The notes beneath the pieces were generated by a model that ran no database searches, was not told the origin of the DNA, and saw nothing but the letters and a program-made list of their open reading frames with translations. The translations under genes and the position numbers were made by a program. Below are positions 53,809 to 62,392 of a stretch of DNA of 64,000 nucleotides, piece after piece (position 1 is the first letter of the stretch; each line of letters starts with the position of its first letter). Source of the DNA: Candidatus Melainabacteria bacterium (GTDB lineage Bacteria; Cyanobacteriota; Vampirovibrionia; Obscuribacterales; Obscuribacteraceae); the NCBI GenBank assembly GCA_003153555.1, contig PLZS01000101.1:1-64000 (forward strand), given 5' to 3'.

Positions 53809-54609
53809 TCAGCGTTGAAGATCTGGAAGCACATTGCCGTGACCGCTAGCGAAAAGTGTTCCGATAACTAAACTAAACAGTCCAGTCAGAACGCTGGTGG
53901 CGATGAACAGCGATTTAAACTTTGCAGAACTGACAAAACCCACACTCGCTAGAACAGCAACAAGCGTATTAGATACTAATAAGCCACCGATGAACGAAAG
54001 AAGAATCAGCACGCCCAACAGATGATTAGAAGAGCCACCGACAGCGGCGATCAAAAGAACTTGCGTACCTGTTTCAGCACCAAAACCATGAATCAAACCA
54101 ATTCCGAAAGCCGCGGGTGCATTGTATTGATTTAGCTCTTCGTCGGGCGGATTCTCTTTCCCCGTAATTCGACAATATAGCCAATTTTTCGCCTGGCGAA
54201 ACTTCGAGAAAAGAAACATCCATCTGCTTTGCAAAACGAACTCTCCGTCCAACGGTCGTTGCATAATGGAATAAAAGATCCAGGCACCAAGTAAGAGAAG
54301 CGTGATGCCCACGGCTCTTTCCATCAAGGGATCAATCCATTCAGGCAAAATCGCCGCGAACGACAAGGCGAGAATACCAAGCATCAGCACGATGGTGGCG
54401 TGACCAAGCGCGTAACATGAAGAAAGTCGAATCGCATTAGTTTGGCCAAAGGTTGCGACTCCAGTTCCATCGCCTCCAGTTCCATCGACTTTAGTAGCGC
54501 TGGCGGTGCCGACTATATCGGTGATAGCAGCTACATGATCCCAGTCAACACCGTGGCGGATCCCCAAGATGACAGCGTTTCCGAGAATTATTAAGGAGCT
54601 GACATCCAT
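53809..54609 (-). CDS. NiCoT-like nickel/cobalt transporter
   Basis: ILGIRHGVDWDHVAAITDIVG (HX4DH signature), ALGHATIV, GLIHGFGAETGTQ. Confidence 0.85.
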   Translation of the reverse strand: MDVSSLIILGNAVILGIRHGVDWDHVAAITDIVGTASATKVDGTGGDGTGVATFGQTNAIRLSSCYALGHATIVLMLGILALSFAAILPEWIDPLMERAVGITLLLLGAWIFYSIMQRPLDGEFVLQSRWMFLFSKFRQAKNWLYCRITGKENPPDEELNQYNAPAAFGIGLIHGFGAETGTQVLLIAAVGGSSNHLLGVLILLSFIGGLLVSNTLVAVLASVGFVSSAKFKSLFIATSVLTGLFSLVIGTLFASGHGNVLPDLQR

Positions 54610-54612
54610 CGC

Positions 54613-54939
54613 TTAGCTATCCACCGTATCCAGACATTTTGATAGATCCACAAACAACGCGGCGGCCTGGCTGTCCCACGTCGCGGCGTAATTTCCCTGA
54701 CCACCATCACTAAGACCAAACTCCTGAAGAAAATCCGTCGCCGTCACTACTCTGTCGCCTAATGCGTTGCGCATCTTGAGCAACCGACCACCGCTGGCTT
54801 GGCTAAAAACAGGCATTAACAGAAACCCTGAATCACATTTCAAAAGGGCGATCGTCTCAATTCCAGAGAAAAATCTTGTGTACAGTTCGTGCTCCACATA
54901 CACGTTGCCATTTCGAATAGAAATACTTTGCAGAGTCAT
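54613..54939 (-). CDS. Conserved-looking hypothetical in hydrogenase operon
   Basis: 4-bp overlap with the protease gene, co-directional. Confidence 0.6.
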   Translation of the reverse strand: MTLQSISIRNGNVYVEHELYTRFFSGIETIALLKCDSGFLLMPVFSQASGGRLLKMRNALGDRVVTATDFLQEFGLSDGGQGNYAATWDSQAAALFVDLSKCLDTVDS

Positions 54940-55418
54940 AATTTTTTCAAACGCTCCACAATTTTATTTACCACCAAATCAGCAGATACTTTCACCACTT
55001 CACTTAATTCCAGACCAAACGCTAAAGACTCCGCTTCGATTAAGAAGACCTGAATATCGGCAGGAAAGTCATCTTTGAAAATCTGACGACCGGCAAATAT
55101 AGCATGGTTCCATCGAAAATCGTGTAAACCAAAAGAGGGTTCTGGGCATGCAGCAAGCGCCTCTCCCGGCACTTCGAAGACAGCACCCGGTTCTGACCCT
55201 GATCGGCTTGCGTCGACGATGATTAAGGCGTTGCTTCCACGCGCTTGAAACATGACATCCATTCCACCTGTACCAGCATCAAAAATCTGGACATTGACCC
55301 GGTCTGCTTGTGACAAACGTTCTTTTAGACGTTGCACAACGTAGACACCAGCGCCATCGTCACTACGGTTTGAATTTCCACAACCAATGATACTGAGCAA
55401 ACCTGACACCTCAATCAA
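54936..55418 (-). CDS. hupW: Uptake hydrogenase maturation protease
   Basis: SIIGCGNSNRSDDGAGVYV, IIVDASRSGSEPG, GLHDFRWNHAI. Confidence 0.85.
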   Translation of the reverse strand: MIEVSGLLSIIGCGNSNRSDDGAGVYVVQRLKERLSQADRVNVQIFDAGTGGMDVMFQARGSNALIIVDASRSGSEPGAVFEVPGEALAACPEPSFGLHDFRWNHAIFAGRQIFKDDFPADIQVFLIEAESLAFGLELSEVVKVSADLVVNKIVERLKKL

Positions 55419-55459: not shown

Positions 55460-55816
55460 TCAAATGCGCCAGAGTCGGCACCACCAATTTTCCTCAGCAG
55501 GAAGATTGATTTCCGGCAGGTTGCACCACTTGCGATGATTCAAATAATACATGCATTCCAAACATCGCATGTCTTCGACTGGATGATCCAGGAAGCCAGA
55601 GATGACAAGCTTCTTTTCCAAGTCGGACGCATCAACCTCACGCAGTTCGGCGACGATCGCATCAAACTGCACGTTGTCTTCTGGAATCGGTTCGGTAACG
55701 GTCTTTAACCCAGCCGAAAGTAATTTCGTAATTCGCTGCAGCAGCTCTTTATCCGCAGAATCGCTCACATCGAACCTCATGAATGAGAGCACTTGAGCAG
55801 CCAAATTCTTAGGCAA
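55460..55816 (-). CDS. Hypothetical, C-terminal Cys/Trp-rich, hydrogenase operon
   Basis: MRCLECMYYLNHRKWCNLPEINLPAEENWWCRLWRI: four clustered Cys. Confidence 0.65.
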   Translation of the reverse strand: MPKNLAAQVLSFMRFDVSDSADKELLQRITKLLSAGLKTVTEPIPEDNVQFDAIVAELREVDASDLEKKLVISGFLDHPVEDMRCLECMYYLNHRKWCNLPEINLPAEENWWCRLWRI

Positions 55817-55863: not shown

Positions 55864-57462
55864 TCAGGCGGTTCTGAATCTAGCCAGCTCCTTCCCCGTC
55901 TTGGCATCATGAGCATGCACTGTGCACACCAAACATGAATCGTACGAGCGAGCCACGTGACCTACCTCCACGGGATCATTGGGATCTTTGATTGGCGTGC
56001 CGACCAGCGCTTCCTCCATTGGTCCGCGCTCGCCGGCGGCATTGCGCGGTCCAACATTCCAGGTGGTTGGTGCAATGATTTGATAGTTCTTGATCTTGCC
56101 ATCCTTCACGTCTATCCAGTGACAGAGGGCTCCACGAATTGCTTCAGTCGCGCCCCAACCTCGACCATCTTTTTCCTTTGGTTTGATGTACCAGGGGTCG
56201 TTCAATTTAAATTCGCGCAAGCAGTGCTCGATATTGCGATAAATAGCTTTCACTTCATGCATCCGGGCAAAGTGACGCAAAAGTACACTGGCGCCACCCA
56301 TCTTCTTATACATATCTAGAACAAGAGGGTCATGGTGTTGCCAACTCTCGCCATGCTTACCGCCATACACCATCTCTCTGGCAAAGGGACCGGCTTCGAG
56401 GCGACCGAAATCAGCGTGAGAGACCGAAGTTGCCCATGAATATTTTCCATTGAAATCAGGAGTATTCTTAGCAATCGGCTTTGTCACCCGCTCAAACGGG
56501 TGAGTTGAGCCGGTTTCTTCATACCAAGCATGCTCCATATCTTCCCGGCAAAAACCCTGCTCCATTAATGTGTGAACATCCTTTTCAGCGTTGTAAGTGC
56601 CACTGGGCATCCACATCGAAGCGTTGCGATTTTCGATTGTCGGTTTCTGATACTTATCTTCGTGTGGCAAATAGCCCCACGTTACGTACCGGCCAACTCC
56701 ATTGCCGAATTTATCCAGACCGAGATCTGTACCCATGCGCCAATACATGCCGAGATCGGAATTTGCATGTTCAGGTTTTTCGTCCAACCAATTCAAGAAG
56801 TCTTCATATGTGCGAATTTCTTCGTATCTTTCTAAAGTGCAACCGAGCCAAACATTTTCAATCCAATTTTTCCGGAAGTGCTCAAGGATGCCCCATGAGC
56901 GCGTGATATCAGTCAAAGTTGGAGCGCACATAACACCACCTGGCACCATGTAGCTCGAATGTGGCCACTGCCCTCCAAACAAGGCATAAATTTCTACAGG
57001 TTTACCAGACAGCGTCACGCCAATTTCGTAGTTGGTGCCTGTGAACGGAGCGTAGCGCCTAACTGCTTCCTCGTAGTATTTGCTGTCTCTGTAATTCTTA
57101 TTCACAAAATCGATCATGAAAAGTGCATAGTGGTGCCGCGGAAGACTTTGCAAGCTTTCGGATAGTTGACCGATATTGCGAGCGAGGATGGCGTTACGCG
57201 GTACCTCTGTTTGCCAGGCTGTATCAAGCGCCCAGGCAGCGCAAGTCAAATGCGAAGCGCCACAAATTCCGCACGCTCGTGGTGTCACCACCAATCCTGC
57301 TTGCGGATCTTTGCCACGCAAAATTATTTCGAATCCACGAAACAACTCCGCTGATGTCCAGGCATTTGTTACCCGTCCATCTGTAATGTCGACACGCACG
57401 TCGAGGTCACCTTCGACACGTCCAACAGGAGAGATGTCCAGGGTTTGGGTAGTTCCCGCCAT
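55864..57462 (-). CDS. hupL: [NiFe] uptake hydrogenase large subunit (group 2a-like)
   Basis: DISPVGRVEGDLDVRV, RACGICGASHLTCAAWALD, C-terminal DSCLVCTVHAHDAKTGKELARFRTA. Confidence 0.95.
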   Translation of the reverse strand: MAGTTQTLDISPVGRVEGDLDVRVDITDGRVTNAWTSAELFRGFEIILRGKDPQAGLVVTPRACGICGASHLTCAAWALDTAWQTEVPRNAILARNIGQLSESLQSLPRHHYALFMIDFVNKNYRDSKYYEEAVRRYAPFTGTNYEIGVTLSGKPVEIYALFGGQWPHSSYMVPGGVMCAPTLTDITRSWGILEHFRKNWIENVWLGCTLERYEEIRTYEDFLNWLDEKPEHANSDLGMYWRMGTDLGLDKFGNGVGRYVTWGYLPHEDKYQKPTIENRNASMWMPSGTYNAEKDVHTLMEQGFCREDMEHAWYEETGSTHPFERVTKPIAKNTPDFNGKYSWATSVSHADFGRLEAGPFAREMVYGGKHGESWQHHDPLVLDMYKKMGGASVLLRHFARMHEVKAIYRNIEHCLREFKLNDPWYIKPKEKDGRGWGATEAIRGALCHWIDVKDGKIKNYQIIAPTTWNVGPRNAAGERGPMEEALVGTPIKDPNDPVEVGHVARSYDSCLVCTVHAHDAKTGKELARFRTA

Positions 57463-57490: not shown

Positions 57491-58453
57491 TCAAACTACG
57501 AACATATCTTCCTCAGCCCAAGCTGGAGCAGCCGCCTTAGCGGCACCGGTATATTTGATATACGAACCTTTCTCAACACCAGTCGGCAATTCCTTAGGCA
57601 CACCCATCACTGTCTGCGTTTTGAAAACTGTGCCTGGCGCCAAATCGTGGAAAGGAAACTCCGGTTCAGTGCAACCTAAACACGGCATACCAGCCCGAGT
57701 TTTAGATGACTGACGATTCCAAAGAATACGGTTGCACGGCGAATGAGTCATTGGACCACGGCATCCCAAATCGTAAAACAGACAACCGTTACGTTGACCA
57801 AATTGCGTCATCGAAACCTTGTAAGCGAAGTGCATGTTCCGCGTGCAACCGGTTTGCGTGAAACTTTGGAAGAACGTTTTCGGTCGTTGATATTCATCTA
57901 AAGTCAAATCACCAGCCCGTCCCGTGGCAACCGCCACTAGAATTTGCGTCACCCAGTCAGGGTGCGCGGGACAACCGGGAATGTTGATCACGGGCAGTCC
58001 GGATTTGCTTTTGAACGCTTTACCAAGTGAGCCACCATGATTCTTTTTCAAAAACTGTAGTCCTTGCGAATCAGTCGGATTTGGAGCAGTCGCGGGGATG
58101 CCACCCCAAGTCGCGCAATCGCCAATCGCCACAACAAAATCGGCGACATCGGAGAGTTCCTTTACCCATTCTTTCATCGGCCGACCGGCAAAACGATTCC
58201 AGGTGCCTGAGCCGTCGGGTGCGTTGACAACGGTGCCTTCAAAAACAAAAATGTCGAGCTTTGTCTTGCCCGACACGCAATCTCTCAAGAGTTGCTGAAC
58301 ATTGTTTCCTAACTCCATCCCTAAAGATGGATGCCAGAGAATGTTGATACCAAAATCAGTGACTAAATCACAAGCGCTTGGTTCTTCGGCATTGAGAAAA
58401 GACATCGAATTGCCTGAACACGCTCCACCTTGCAGCCACAATAGGTTTGCCAT
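57491..58453 (-). CDS. hupS: [NiFe] uptake hydrogenase small subunit (group 2a-like, no Tat leader)
   Basis: NLLWLQGGACSGNSMSFLNAEEPSACDL, IGDCATWGGIPA, GCPAHPDWVTQIL, GMPCLGCTEPEFPF. Confidence 0.95.
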   Translation of the reverse strand: MANLLWLQGGACSGNSMSFLNAEEPSACDLVTDFGINILWHPSLGMELGNNVQQLLRDCVSGKTKLDIFVFEGTVVNAPDGSGTWNRFAGRPMKEWVKELSDVADFVVAIGDCATWGGIPATAPNPTDSQGLQFLKKNHGGSLGKAFKSKSGLPVINIPGCPAHPDWVTQILVAVATGRAGDLTLDEYQRPKTFFQSFTQTGCTRNMHFAYKVSMTQFGQRNGCLFYDLGCRGPMTHSPCNRILWNRQSSKTRAGMPCLGCTEPEFPFHDLAPGTVFKTQTVMGVPKELPTGVEKGSYIKYTGAAKAAAPAWAEEDMFVV

Positions 58454-58813: not shown

Positions 58814-59830
58814 GTGAGTAATCAACAAGCCCATCATCACTATGAACAGGCATTGGCTGCCCTCGATGATGGCAATGCCTCCATCATCGACAAAGTAGAA
58901 ATGCTCATGGAAATAGCCATGGGACTGCAAATGAGACCGAAAACGCCCGAACAATTAATCGATGCGATATCCTTATATGAACGAGCTCTTGAGCTTTGCC
59001 CGAAAGAAGAAATATTGCTCAGCGCGCGCATTCGAGCCCGCAAAGCGACTGCACTACAGATGGTGCCCAGTGAAGAAGTCGGCTATCTGCTGCAAGCGCG
59101 TGACGAACTGGAAACGTCACTTTCTGTTCTGTCGATGCACGGCGGACTAAACGAAGAAATTGCAGAGGCACAAATAAATCTCGGACTGATTCATCAGTCT
59201 CTGGCTCAGGCTGGGCGGGCTAAAATTACTGATGCGATTGTGTTGTATCAACAGGCATTGCGTGTCTTCACAAAAGAATCTTATCCTGCCGAGTACGCGA
59301 TTCTCCACAACAATTTGGCGACTGCTTTTCTATCGATGCCAATGTCTGACGAACGTGGAAAAATGCGAGAAGCCCTAGCAGTTCAATCATTCGAGGCAGC
59401 GCTGGAAGTAATCTCGCTTGAGGAAAGTCCAAGCGAGTACGCCATGCTGCAAAACAACTTAGGCAACGCCCTGCAATATGTTTCATCTAGCCACGGCGTA
59501 GAAAACAATCTTAGAGCTCTAGATGCCTACGAAGAGGCTCTAAAAGTCCGCACTGAGCAGACTACGCCAGTTCCTTACGCCACCACAATTGCCAATAAAG
59601 CTAACTGCCTTAGAAATTTGCCGGACGACCTCAAAGAACCAACCAAAGGTAATCAACAAAGATTAGTGCAAGCGCGCTTGCTATATCGTGATGCCCAGAG
59701 AATCCTTGCTGCTTACGGAGAAAATGTCAGAGCTCAAATGTTAGGCGAAGCGTTAGCGGATGTTGAGCGAGAGCTTAGTGATAATCGGTCACATCGTGGG
59801 CAAGACAAATTTGGCAACTCGCCAATCTGA
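58814..59830 (+). CDS. TPR-repeat protein (hydrogenase accessory operon)
   Basis: Multiple TPR units; GTG start with GAGGAGG upstream. Confidence 0.8.
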   Translation: MSNQQAHHHYEQALAALDDGNASIIDKVEMLMEIAMGLQMRPKTPEQLIDAISLYERALELCPKEEILLSARIRARKATALQMVPSEEVGYLLQARDELETSLSVLSMHGGLNEEIAEAQINLGLIHQSLAQAGRAKITDAIVLYQQALRVFTKESYPAEYAILHNNLATAFLSMPMSDERGKMREALAVQSFEAALEVISLEESPSEYAMLQNNLGNALQYVSSSHGVENNLRALDAYEEALKVRTEQTTPVPYATTIANKANCLRNLPDDLKEPTKGNQQRLVQARLLYRDAQRILAAYGENVRAQMLGEALADVERELSDNRSHRGQDKFGNSPI

Positions 59831-59846: not shown

Positions 59847-60086
59847 ATGGAATCCGTTCTGCACAGTCTTGCAGCCAGCGAGATAAACGCATTGACAGGG
59901 CTTGTCTGGCTCGTAGCCAGTCTCCTTTTCGGGGCACTTGCTGGAGCACTTAGTGCCATGAAGCTTGCCGGGAAAGACATCGGAAACGAGCTAGCCTTAA
60001 TGATGGGCAGCGTCTTTGGACCGATTGCCGTAATCCCAGGAGTTCTTTTGGGGTTAGTAGTACTCAAGCTCCTGGGGGCACCATAA
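59847..60086 (+). CDS. Small two-TM membrane protein
   Basis: MESVLHSLAASEINALTGLVWLVASLLFGALAGALSAMKLAGKDIGNELALMMGSVFGPIAVIPGVLLGLVVLKLLGAP; GGAGG upstream. Confidence 0.7.
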   Translation: MESVLHSLAASEINALTGLVWLVASLLFGALAGALSAMKLAGKDIGNELALMMGSVFGPIAVIPGVLLGLVVLKLLGAP

Positions 60087-60087
60087 G

Positions 60088-60312
60088 ATGTGGGATGCCT
60101 TTTTAAATGCTGTTAGCTTGTTCTTTAAAGGAAAGCTGTTCAGGGATTTTAACGAAGTAGTCAAAAAAACTTTAATCGGCAATGTAGTTGCCGCAATCTT
60201 ATTGATTGTTCTAGCCAAGTTGGGACTGCCACTGTATGTGGTGATCCCAATTGTTAGTATCGTTGCCGGGGCACTGCAGCCTTGGCTATTTAAGGATCTT
60301 AAATACGCATAG
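60088..60312 (+). CDS. Small membrane protein with amphipathic/basic N-terminus
   Basis: MWDAFLNAVSLFFKGKLFRDFNEVVKKTLIGNVVAAILLIVLAKLGLPLYVVIPIVSIVAGALQPWLFKDLKYA. Confidence 0.7.
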   Translation: MWDAFLNAVSLFFKGKLFRDFNEVVKKTLIGNVVAAILLIVLAKLGLPLYVVIPIVSIVAGALQPWLFKDLKYA

Positions 60313-60320
60313 GGGCGATC

Positions 60321-61187
60321 ATGTCATCCAGCAATTCAGTCACCGCAGAGATCACTCTTGAGAAATTGCTAAAGGACATAGAGTCTCTTGAAGCCGTGGT
60401 GGCGACTTGGGACGAGCATGAGCGTATTACCGTTGCAGCGCTGAAACGGGCTATCGACGATTTGAACAAAGAAGCATTAACGCGAGTGATTAGATCACTA
60501 AAGAATACCCCCGCGGCAATGACTGCTCTAAAGGAATCGACTGCAGACGAAGTCGTCTATTCCGTGCTTCGCCACCATGGATTAATCAAGCCCTCACTGC
60601 ATGAAAGAATTGAGCAAGCACTAGATTCGGTGCGCCCCATGCTTCAAGGTCACGGAGGTAATGTTGAGTTAGTCTCAATAGATCTGCCGTCTACGGCTGT
60701 CGTAAGACTGATTGGAGCCTGTAGCGGATGCCCGGCATCGGAACTGACTTTGAGTGAGGGGGTAGAAAAGGCGATCAAAGAATATTGTCCAGAGATTACC
60801 GAAATTGTCAAAGCGAAAGGCATTTGCACTTCCTCCGATACGCCTGTAAATTTCGTCAGCCCCTTTGCTCGTGGTCAAGACAAGAAATGGGTCTTCGCTG
60901 TCGAGTTCGAACAACTGCCAGAAGACAAGTTAGTTGTCTGTGAAGTGGAAGGGCAATCAGTAATTCTGGCTCGACTTGAAAACAACGTCGTTTGTTATCA
61001 AAATGCTTGCGCCCACCTGGGTATGCCTCTCGATATGGGTGAGGTAAGCGCGGGCGTTTTAAAGTGCCCCTACCATTCTTTCGAATATCTGCTTAAAAGC
61101 GGAGAATGCCTGACTGTGCCTGAAGTGCAACTACAAACACACGCTGTGCGGGTTGTCGACAATCGGGTGGAGGTCAGTCTTTCGTGA
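60321..61187 (+). CDS. NifU C-terminal domain-Rieske ferredoxin fusion (HucE/HhyE-like)
   Basis: HGGNVELVSIDLPSTAVVRLIGACSGCPAS (NifU CxxC); CYQNACAHLGMPL...LKCPYHSFEY (Rieske CxH/CxxH). Confidence 0.9.
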   Translation: MSSSNSVTAEITLEKLLKDIESLEAVVATWDEHERITVAALKRAIDDLNKEALTRVIRSLKNTPAAMTALKESTADEVVYSVLRHHGLIKPSLHERIEQALDSVRPMLQGHGGNVELVSIDLPSTAVVRLIGACSGCPASELTLSEGVEKAIKEYCPEITEIVKAKGICTSSDTPVNFVSPFARGQDKKWVFAVEFEQLPEDKLVVCEVEGQSVILARLENNVVCYQNACAHLGMPLDMGEVSAGVLKCPYHSFEYLLKSGECLTVPEVQLQTHAVRVVDNRVEVSLS

Positions 61188-62392
61188 CGATCAAGAAAGT
61201 CAGCCTCAAGGTTTCTCCGGAAGCTGCACTTCGCTTGTCTTCGGCTCGCGAACATTCATTCGTCAACCTGCTGGATGCAGAACCACTGGTGGTGCTTGGT
61301 GGTGAACGAAATCCAGCTGTTATATTGCCATCGATTGTACCCAGCGCCACAACGTGTTTTGGACCGCGGGGTGCATGTCTGACTTCAGCCAACGGACCAC
61401 TCTGGATGTGTGATACCGGTCATCACCGTCTACTGGGATGGCGCAGTCTTCCTGGCAATGACGCGGCCCCTGCTGATTGGTTGATCGGTCAAAAGGATTT
61501 TGCTAGCGAAGGTCGCAACGGCAAAGGCGATATCGGACCGACGACAGTAAACGTTCCTACCGGCATCTGTGCAATGGGAAATGGTTTAGCAGTAGCCGAT
61601 GCCTGGAACCATCGCATTCTTATTTGGCACAAGGTTCCGCAGAGCAGCAATGTAGAGGCTGATTTGGTGCTAGGACAATCCCACTTCGGTGCAGGCGAGG
61701 CCAATCGCGGGGCGGACCATCCAGGTGCTGAAACGCTTCATTGGCCATACGGCGTGCACTATCAAGATGGACGACTTTTCGTCGCTGATACCGGTAATAG
61801 ACGCGTGTTAATTTGGAACCAACCTCTGACCAAAAACGGACAAAAAGCCGATTGCGTTTTAGGACAGATGGATTTTTCCACACGTGATGAAAATGCCGGT
61901 GCTGCTCCAAGTGCTATGAGCATGCGCTGGCCGCACGCGATAGTATTCTGGAATGACAAATTGTGCGTTAGCGATGCTGGCAACAATCGAATTCTAGTCT
62001 GGGACGGTTGCCCGTCCATCAGCGGTTCCCCAGCCGACCTCCTTCTTGGACAAGCCGACCCTACTAACGTTGACTTCAATCAATCATTTTATTGGCCTCG
62101 ATGCAACACATTGAACATGCCTTACGGAATGACAGCCAAAGGTGCTTGGTTAATCGTTGCCGACACTGCGAACTCACGCATCTTAGGTTGGCACATCGAT
62201 CAACTGGGCACCAAAGGTGATGCCGCGGCATTGTTTGGTCAAAAGGATTTTCACGAAAAAGGTGACAATCGTTGGCAGCCGACCTGCAGTGATAGCTTGT
62301 GCTGGCCCTATGGAGTGCAGGCTGTCGACGACATGGTAGTAATTTCCGACTCAGGCAACAATCGAATATCAGTCTGGAGGTTGGCTGTGTGA
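61184..62392 (+). CDS. NHL-repeat beta-propeller protein
   Basis: Repeated VADxxNxRILIW / DTGNRRVLIWN / DAGNNRILVWD / DSGNNRISVW blades; GTG start overlapping previous stop. Confidence 0.88.
   Translation: MTIKKVSLKVSPEAALRLSSAREHSFVNLLDAEPLVVLGGERNPAVILPSIVPSATTCFGPRGACLTSANGPLWMCDTGHHRLLGWRSLPGNDAAPADWLIGQKDFASEGRNGKGDIGPTTVNVPTGICAMGNGLAVADAWNHRILIWHKVPQSSNVEADLVLGQSHFGAGEANRGADHPGAETLHWPYGVHYQDGRLFVADTGNRRVLIWNQPLTKNGQKADCVLGQMDFSTRDENAGAAPSAMSMRWPHAIVFWNDKLCVSDAGNNRILVWDGCPSISGSPADLLLGQADPTNVDFNQSFYWPRCNTLNMPYGMTAKGAWLIVADTANSRILGWHIDQLGTKGDAAALFGQKDFHEKGDNRWQPTCSDSLCWPYGVQAVDDMVVISDSGNNRISVWRLAV

Follow-up and report, generated by a model that had tools for sequence, protein, structure and literature searches.

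Introduction

Group 1 hydrogenases use a membrane cytochrome b. For the soluble group 2a hydrogenase Huc of Mycobacterium smegmatis, membrane attachment and quinone access are provided by HucM (MSMEG_2261; DUF1641, PF07849), a coiled-coil stalk of about 19 kDa that touches the membrane surface and is encoded upstream of hucS. In the Huc structure, Tyr229, Tyr301 and Lys212 of HucS contact menaquinone (PMC10017518). A small partner of a similar kind is ForE of the Bacillus subtilis ForCE system, through which a soluble Fe-S oxidoreductase reaches menaquinone (PMC8808070).

The cyanobacterial uptake hydrogenase HupSL is bound to the membrane although it has neither a signal peptide nor a transmembrane domain, and a third subunit, embedded in the membrane, has been postulated; how the enzyme is held at the membrane and transfers electrons to the quinone pool is a stated gap (PMC6616624). 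Two small genes of Nostoc PCC 7120, asr0689 and asr0690, belong to the "extended hyp-operon" described in 2008. Each of these small proteins has two predicted transmembrane regions, and a role of the asr0689-alr0692 cluster in HupS maturation has been suggested (PMC2408588, PMC3126725). Here we analyse a locus of this type in a 64,000-nucleotide stretch of a Candidatus Melainabacteria genome (the window), with a focus on its two small membrane proteins, s1 and s2.

Results

The window carries an operon on the forward strand whose first gene encodes a TPR protein (58814-59830, +), with Pfam TPR matches, homology to alr0691 and Npun_R0367, and 47-53% identity to the proteins at the equivalent place in cyanobacterial loci. 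It is followed by s1 (59847-60086, +; ATG, 79 aa), s2 (60088-60312, +; ATG, 74 aa), a homologue of alr0692 that we call HucE (60321-61187, +; NifU, PF01106, E 2.3e-24, and Rieske [2Fe-2S], PF00355, E 5.5e-17) and an NHL-repeat protein homologous to alr0693 (61184-62392, +; PF01436, E 3.2e-21). The genes are tightly packed, with 16 nt between the TPR stop (59830) and s1, 1 nt between s1 and s2 and 8 nt between s2 and HucE, whose stop overlaps the start of the NHL gene (61184); a GGAGG ribosome-binding site precedes s1. Open reading frames, spacing and hydropathy thus agree with the preliminary description, which had placed two small membrane proteins between the TPR and NifU-Rieske genes. Because homologues of both keep this order in 30 cyanobacterial loci, six alphaproteobacterial plasmids and nine relatives from the same order, s1 and s2 are not chance reading frames.

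Divergent from this operon, on the opposite strand, lie the genes for the group 2a small subunit HupS (57491-58453, −; HucS of 7uur/7utd, E 2.9e-156), the large subunit HupL (55864-57462, −; HucL of 7uus/7utd, E 5.6e-186, far above its matches to other hydrogenases) and the maturation protease HupW (54936-55418, −; TIGR00072, E 6.9e-36). Two further genes were noted on this strand. Between hupL and hupW, a Cys-rich 118-aa protein (55460-55816, −; CLEC, C-terminal CRLWRI) without an assigned family is found in some relatives and missing from others. Adjoining the hydrogenase genes is a 266-aa membrane protein (53809-54609, −) that by eye resembles a nickel permease (HGVDWDH motif) and had no Pfam match at E 0.01.

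Among solved structures, HupS and HupL come closest to the group 2a enzyme Huc of M. smegmatis, and the window HupS retains the equivalents of the menaquinone-contact residues (K212, Y227 and Y298), which together place the enzyme in group 2a. The earlier remarks on a missing Tat leader and a missing cytochrome b were borne out: HupS begins at the mature domain (MANLLWLQGGACSG) without a Tat leader, and a search of the whole assembly gave no hydrogenase cytochrome b above the curated cut-off, TIGR02125 matching only below it.

The small proteins belong to a family that already has a name. Along its full length, s1 matches NCBIfam NF052670, the "asr0689 family" (profile positions 1-71 of 71, E 4.6e-22), but its 77.8 bits fall short of the curated cut-off of 95 bits, and it is therefore best described as a divergent homologue and not filed as an equivalog. 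For s2, which matched no Pfam or NCBIfam family, the relationship comes from tblastn, with 31-46% identity to genes at the asr0690 position; asr0690 itself has no curated model. The gene order TPR, s1, s2, NifU/Rieske, NHL beside hupSL is that of the asr0689-alr0693 operon and is identical to Nostoc punctiforme R0367-R0363, in which Npun_R0366 and Npun_R0365 are the counterparts of s1 and s2. Judged by sequence, neither protein is new: s1 is a divergent homologue of Nostoc asr0689, and s2 of asr0690. The word "uncharacterised", applied to them earlier, thus holds for their function and not for their family, given the match of s1 to NF052670.

The locus also differs from that of Nostoc. Its host probably lies outside the sampled oxygenic cyanobacteria, among non-photosynthetic relatives, hyp genes were not seen directly after the NHL gene in the window, and no nifH scored above cut-off in the window genome, an 87%-complete assembly. 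A link to nitrogen fixation as such, which we considered, is unsupported in view of this last result.

Hydropathy gives two TM-like segments in 49 of 50 s1 sequences (residues 19-37 and 60-78 in the window) and at least one strong TM-like segment in every s2 sequence, with a second, weaker one by helix prediction. AlphaFold2 models, both single-sequence and of low information, consist of helices at 2-41 and 45-75 for s1 (pLDDT 78) and at 2-13, 16-45 and 49-73 for s2 (pLDDT 75); in the latter, a basic hydrophobic N-terminus is followed by two helices. The start of s2 had been called amphipathic, a term that does not survive comparison with same-residue shuffles, as its helical hydrophobic moment does not exceed theirs (P 0.36-0.97 in the window; family median P 0.88). 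The segment is better described as hydrophobic and basic, with a net charge of about +2.8 in the family.

The invariant residues are mainly Gly, Pro and Leu: G33, G46 and G54 in s1 (34 homologues aligned) and M1, L11, G15, L17, G61 and P65 in s2 (38 homologues aligned). Apart from the start Met of s2, neither alignment contains a conserved His, Cys or Met, and His is entirely missing from 45 of 50 s2 and 27 of 50 s1 sequences, a pattern that argues against a haem or Fe-S subunit. It bears directly on the idea that s1 and s2 form a haem- or Fe-S-bearing electron conduit in the membrane, by analogy with the cytochrome b of group 1 enzymes, a component that the window does not have. Neither protein offers the conserved haem-ligand His of HupC/HyaC-type cytochrome b, TIGR02125 reaches only sub-threshold scores in the genome, and we give this idea almost no credence.

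Searches for more distant relatives returned little. That s1 and s2 are paralogues was ruled out (hhalign probability 0.4%). Pfam matches below cut-off, to Bestrophin-like sequences for s1 and to DUF1097 and BofA for s2 (the latter two in only 1-2 of 38 members), are read as chance likeness between hydrophobic segments. PDB profile searches with s1 and s2 gave no useful match, and the best Foldseek match of the s2 model had an E value no better than 6.6.

Within the phylum, s1, s2 and a HupL at least 70% identical to that of the window were found in the same 38 of 294 genomes, the three genome lists being compared by eye. The prospect that homologues might be widespread without hydrogenase genes was thereby examined, and only one genome, G339, departs from the pattern. 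In the order of the window, s2 occurs in 11 of 53 genomes, ten with such a HupL, plus G339. This fragmented genome has two 7-kb contigs (L152, L153) with TPR-s1-s2-HucE-NHL next to u118-hupW-u108; neither hupSL nor a HupL of this type was found in it, and about 130 bp lie where hupSL usually sits. G007 and G050 have hydrogenases (about 40% identity) of a different subgroup, with no s1/s2 operon in the stretch examined.

The genes s1 and s2 lie next to each other, in most cases with those for the TPR protein and HucE on either side (30 cyanobacterial loci plus four longer ones). In eight genomes (G146, G150, G187, G272, G054, G237, G177 and G282), hupL lies about 0.1-2 Mb from s1 and s2 on one contig, so linkage alone does not explain their association with HupL. 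Where hupSL sits apart, s1 and s2 remain with TPR and HucE, and their direct partner may therefore not be HupSL.

We compared two types of enzyme. Type A, with HupL at least 70% identical to that of the window (Cyanobacteriota, Alphaproteobacteria), carries s1 and s2 and never HucM; type B is the Huc-like branch, with HupL about 55% identical (Mycobacterium, Thermus, Bacillota, Chloroflexota and others), sampled here as 80 loci from a Thermus-led HupL alignment plus three plasmids. The Mycobacterium protein encoded upstream of hupS matches both HucM of the Huc structure (7uus_Q, E 2.9e-34) and PF07849, so HucM belongs to DUF1641. HucM was present in 69 of the 83 type B loci, whereas s1 and s2 were present in none. 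Of the 14 loci without HucM, seven have less than 1 kb upstream of hupS, and the seven with at least 3 kb are actinobacterial and Huc-like (L076, L089, L092, L107, L110, L128 and L129). Conversely, DUF1641 is absent from the whole window assembly and from all 38 genomes with s1 and s2, and the six alphaproteobacterial plasmid loci (HupL 73-78% identical), plasmids being the only source of type A sampled outside Cyanobacteriota, have s1 and s2 and no HucM. The view that neither small protein resembles HucM is upheld, since neither matches DUF1641 and the two systems never occur together in the sample.

Type B operons keep TPR, HucE and NHL. Whereas type A loci have two small membrane ORFs, 72 complete type B spans from HupL to HucE contain no convincing one, and an isolated small ORF in L123 reads as spurious. 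A separate observation concerns the s1/s2 slot between TPR and HucE, which in most of the non-actinobacterial type B loci examined holds a conserved soluble protein of about 125 aa (L044, 11732-12109; also L050, L052-L054, L056, L060, L061, L063, L065, L068, L072, L075, L077 and L105), without a Pfam match in the three tested.

Both versions occur within the order of the window. All nine fetched type A relatives (HupL 79-90% identical) have s1 and s2 in a locus without HucM, and all three type B members, from one genus (L149-L151, G326-G328; HupL 53-54% identical), have HucM and neither s1 nor s2, so the feature tracks the enzyme and not the host. In the HupL tree, a branch with 100% support sets the s1/s2 loci apart from the rest, and the choice between s1/s2 and HucM requires a single change; the exclusivity thus counts as one evolutionary event, however many genomes show it, which is the chief statistical limit of the comparison. 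Another feature of the type A branch could explain it. Close to that split lie only two Bacteroidota plasmids, both without either system, on long branches flagged by the program. These plasmids, from Runella and Hymenobacter (L047, L048), are group 2a-like, with HucM, s1/s2 and HucE all undetected in the locus. Together with the seven Huc-like loci without HucM, they indicate that neither adapter is universal.

The three menaquinone-contact residues are kept in 18 of 18 type A and at least 84 of 85 type B HupS sequences. Only a few HupS positions tell the types apart. Except for one at 115, they cluster late in the protein (N206, A210, a deletion of two residues at 220, D228 and 281-314), and those at 206-228 flank the quinone-contact residues. 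As a pattern in the alignment, the 206-228 differences would fit a changed quinone-delivery partner.

Discussion

We consider it slightly more likely than not that s1 and s2 together serve this branch of group 2a hydrogenases as a small adapter, integral to the membrane, in place of HucM. In mycobacterial Huc, the DUF1641 subunit is both the stalk to the membrane and the conduit for quinone; here, s1 and s2 would jointly do this for a soluble, cytoplasm-facing enzyme. By docking HupSL, along with HucE and the TPR protein, to the membrane, they would let quinone enter the pocket beside the distal Fe-S cluster of HupS. This assignment draws on several observations: both proteins have membrane character, their genes sit in this operon, they co-occur almost perfectly with this HupL branch and do not overlap with HucM, and the quinone-contact residues are conserved. 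It also gains support from two precedents: ForE, a second DUF1641-type protein, links a soluble formate dehydrogenase with menaquinone (PMC8808070), and cyanobacterial HupSL, membrane-bound without a TM domain, has a postulated third subunit (PMC6616624). The earlier suggestion of anchoring or quinone access thus remains the best reading of the co-occurrence and of the non-overlap with HucM, while binding of HupSL or HucE, membrane localisation, formation of a pair and delivery of quinone are parts that we infer. The presence of s1 and s2 in G339 without a detected hupSL counts against it.

The proposed job is the one assigned to HucM, but the proteins are unlike. HucM is a stalk at the membrane surface, whereas s1 and s2 are two integral membrane proteins of about 8 kDa each, encoded before HucE and without sequence similarity to HucM. 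ForE likewise shares the proposed role and differs in being of the DUF1641 type, in having no TM segment and in serving a different enzyme. As s1/s2 and HucM have no common sequence or predicted fold, any replacement of one by the other would be analogous.

The main alternative is the published one, in which s1 and s2 serve as assembly factors that aid the insertion of Fe-S clusters into HupS or shield those clusters. It was put forward from the position of the genes between hupSL and hyp and their co-transcription with hyp genes (PMC2408588, PMC3126725), and s1 and s2 also adjoin a NifU-domain protein. However, type B operons have TPR, HucE and NHL without s1 and s2, so they are dispensable for HupS maturation as such, and no Cys or His is conserved in either protein. 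We regard this proposal as unlikely, and weaker than that of a membrane adapter.

It is also rather improbable that what s1 and s2 anchor is the HucE (Rieske)/TPR module and not HupSL, with HucE relaying electrons at the membrane. Such a role would suit their company, which remains TPR and HucE even where hupSL is elsewhere, and the requirement of HucE for Huc activity in M. smegmatis (PMC6883350). Yet type B enzymes have the same HucE without s1 and s2, and with the quinone-contact residues kept in HupS there is no obvious need for a Rieske relay. A role as transporter or ion channel for the hydrogenase, for instance in nickel import, would agree with small helical hairpins and with an early annotation as possible ABC-transporter parts (PMC2408588). 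We find this very unlikely, as neither protein matches a transporter family, the operon contains no ATPase and type B enzymes manage without the pair.

If s1 and s2 are a membrane adapter, group 2a hydrogenases may use two unrelated membrane couplings, the Huc branch having a DUF1641 stalk and the other branch, to which the sampled cyanobacterial uptake hydrogenases belong, two integral micro-proteins; we hold this broader claim to be evenly poised. A split of this kind within group 2a appears to be new, and neither it nor an adapter role for s1 and s2 was found as an earlier proposal in the open-licence PMC literature. The split lets one predict, for a given group 2a enzyme, whether it should assemble in the HucM manner, a point of relevance to heterologous expression. 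It also provides two named candidate genes for hydrogenase membrane coupling in the genetically tractable Nostoc. If the proposal is true, s1 and s2 would be the missing membrane-embedded third subunit long postulated for cyanobacterial HupSL.
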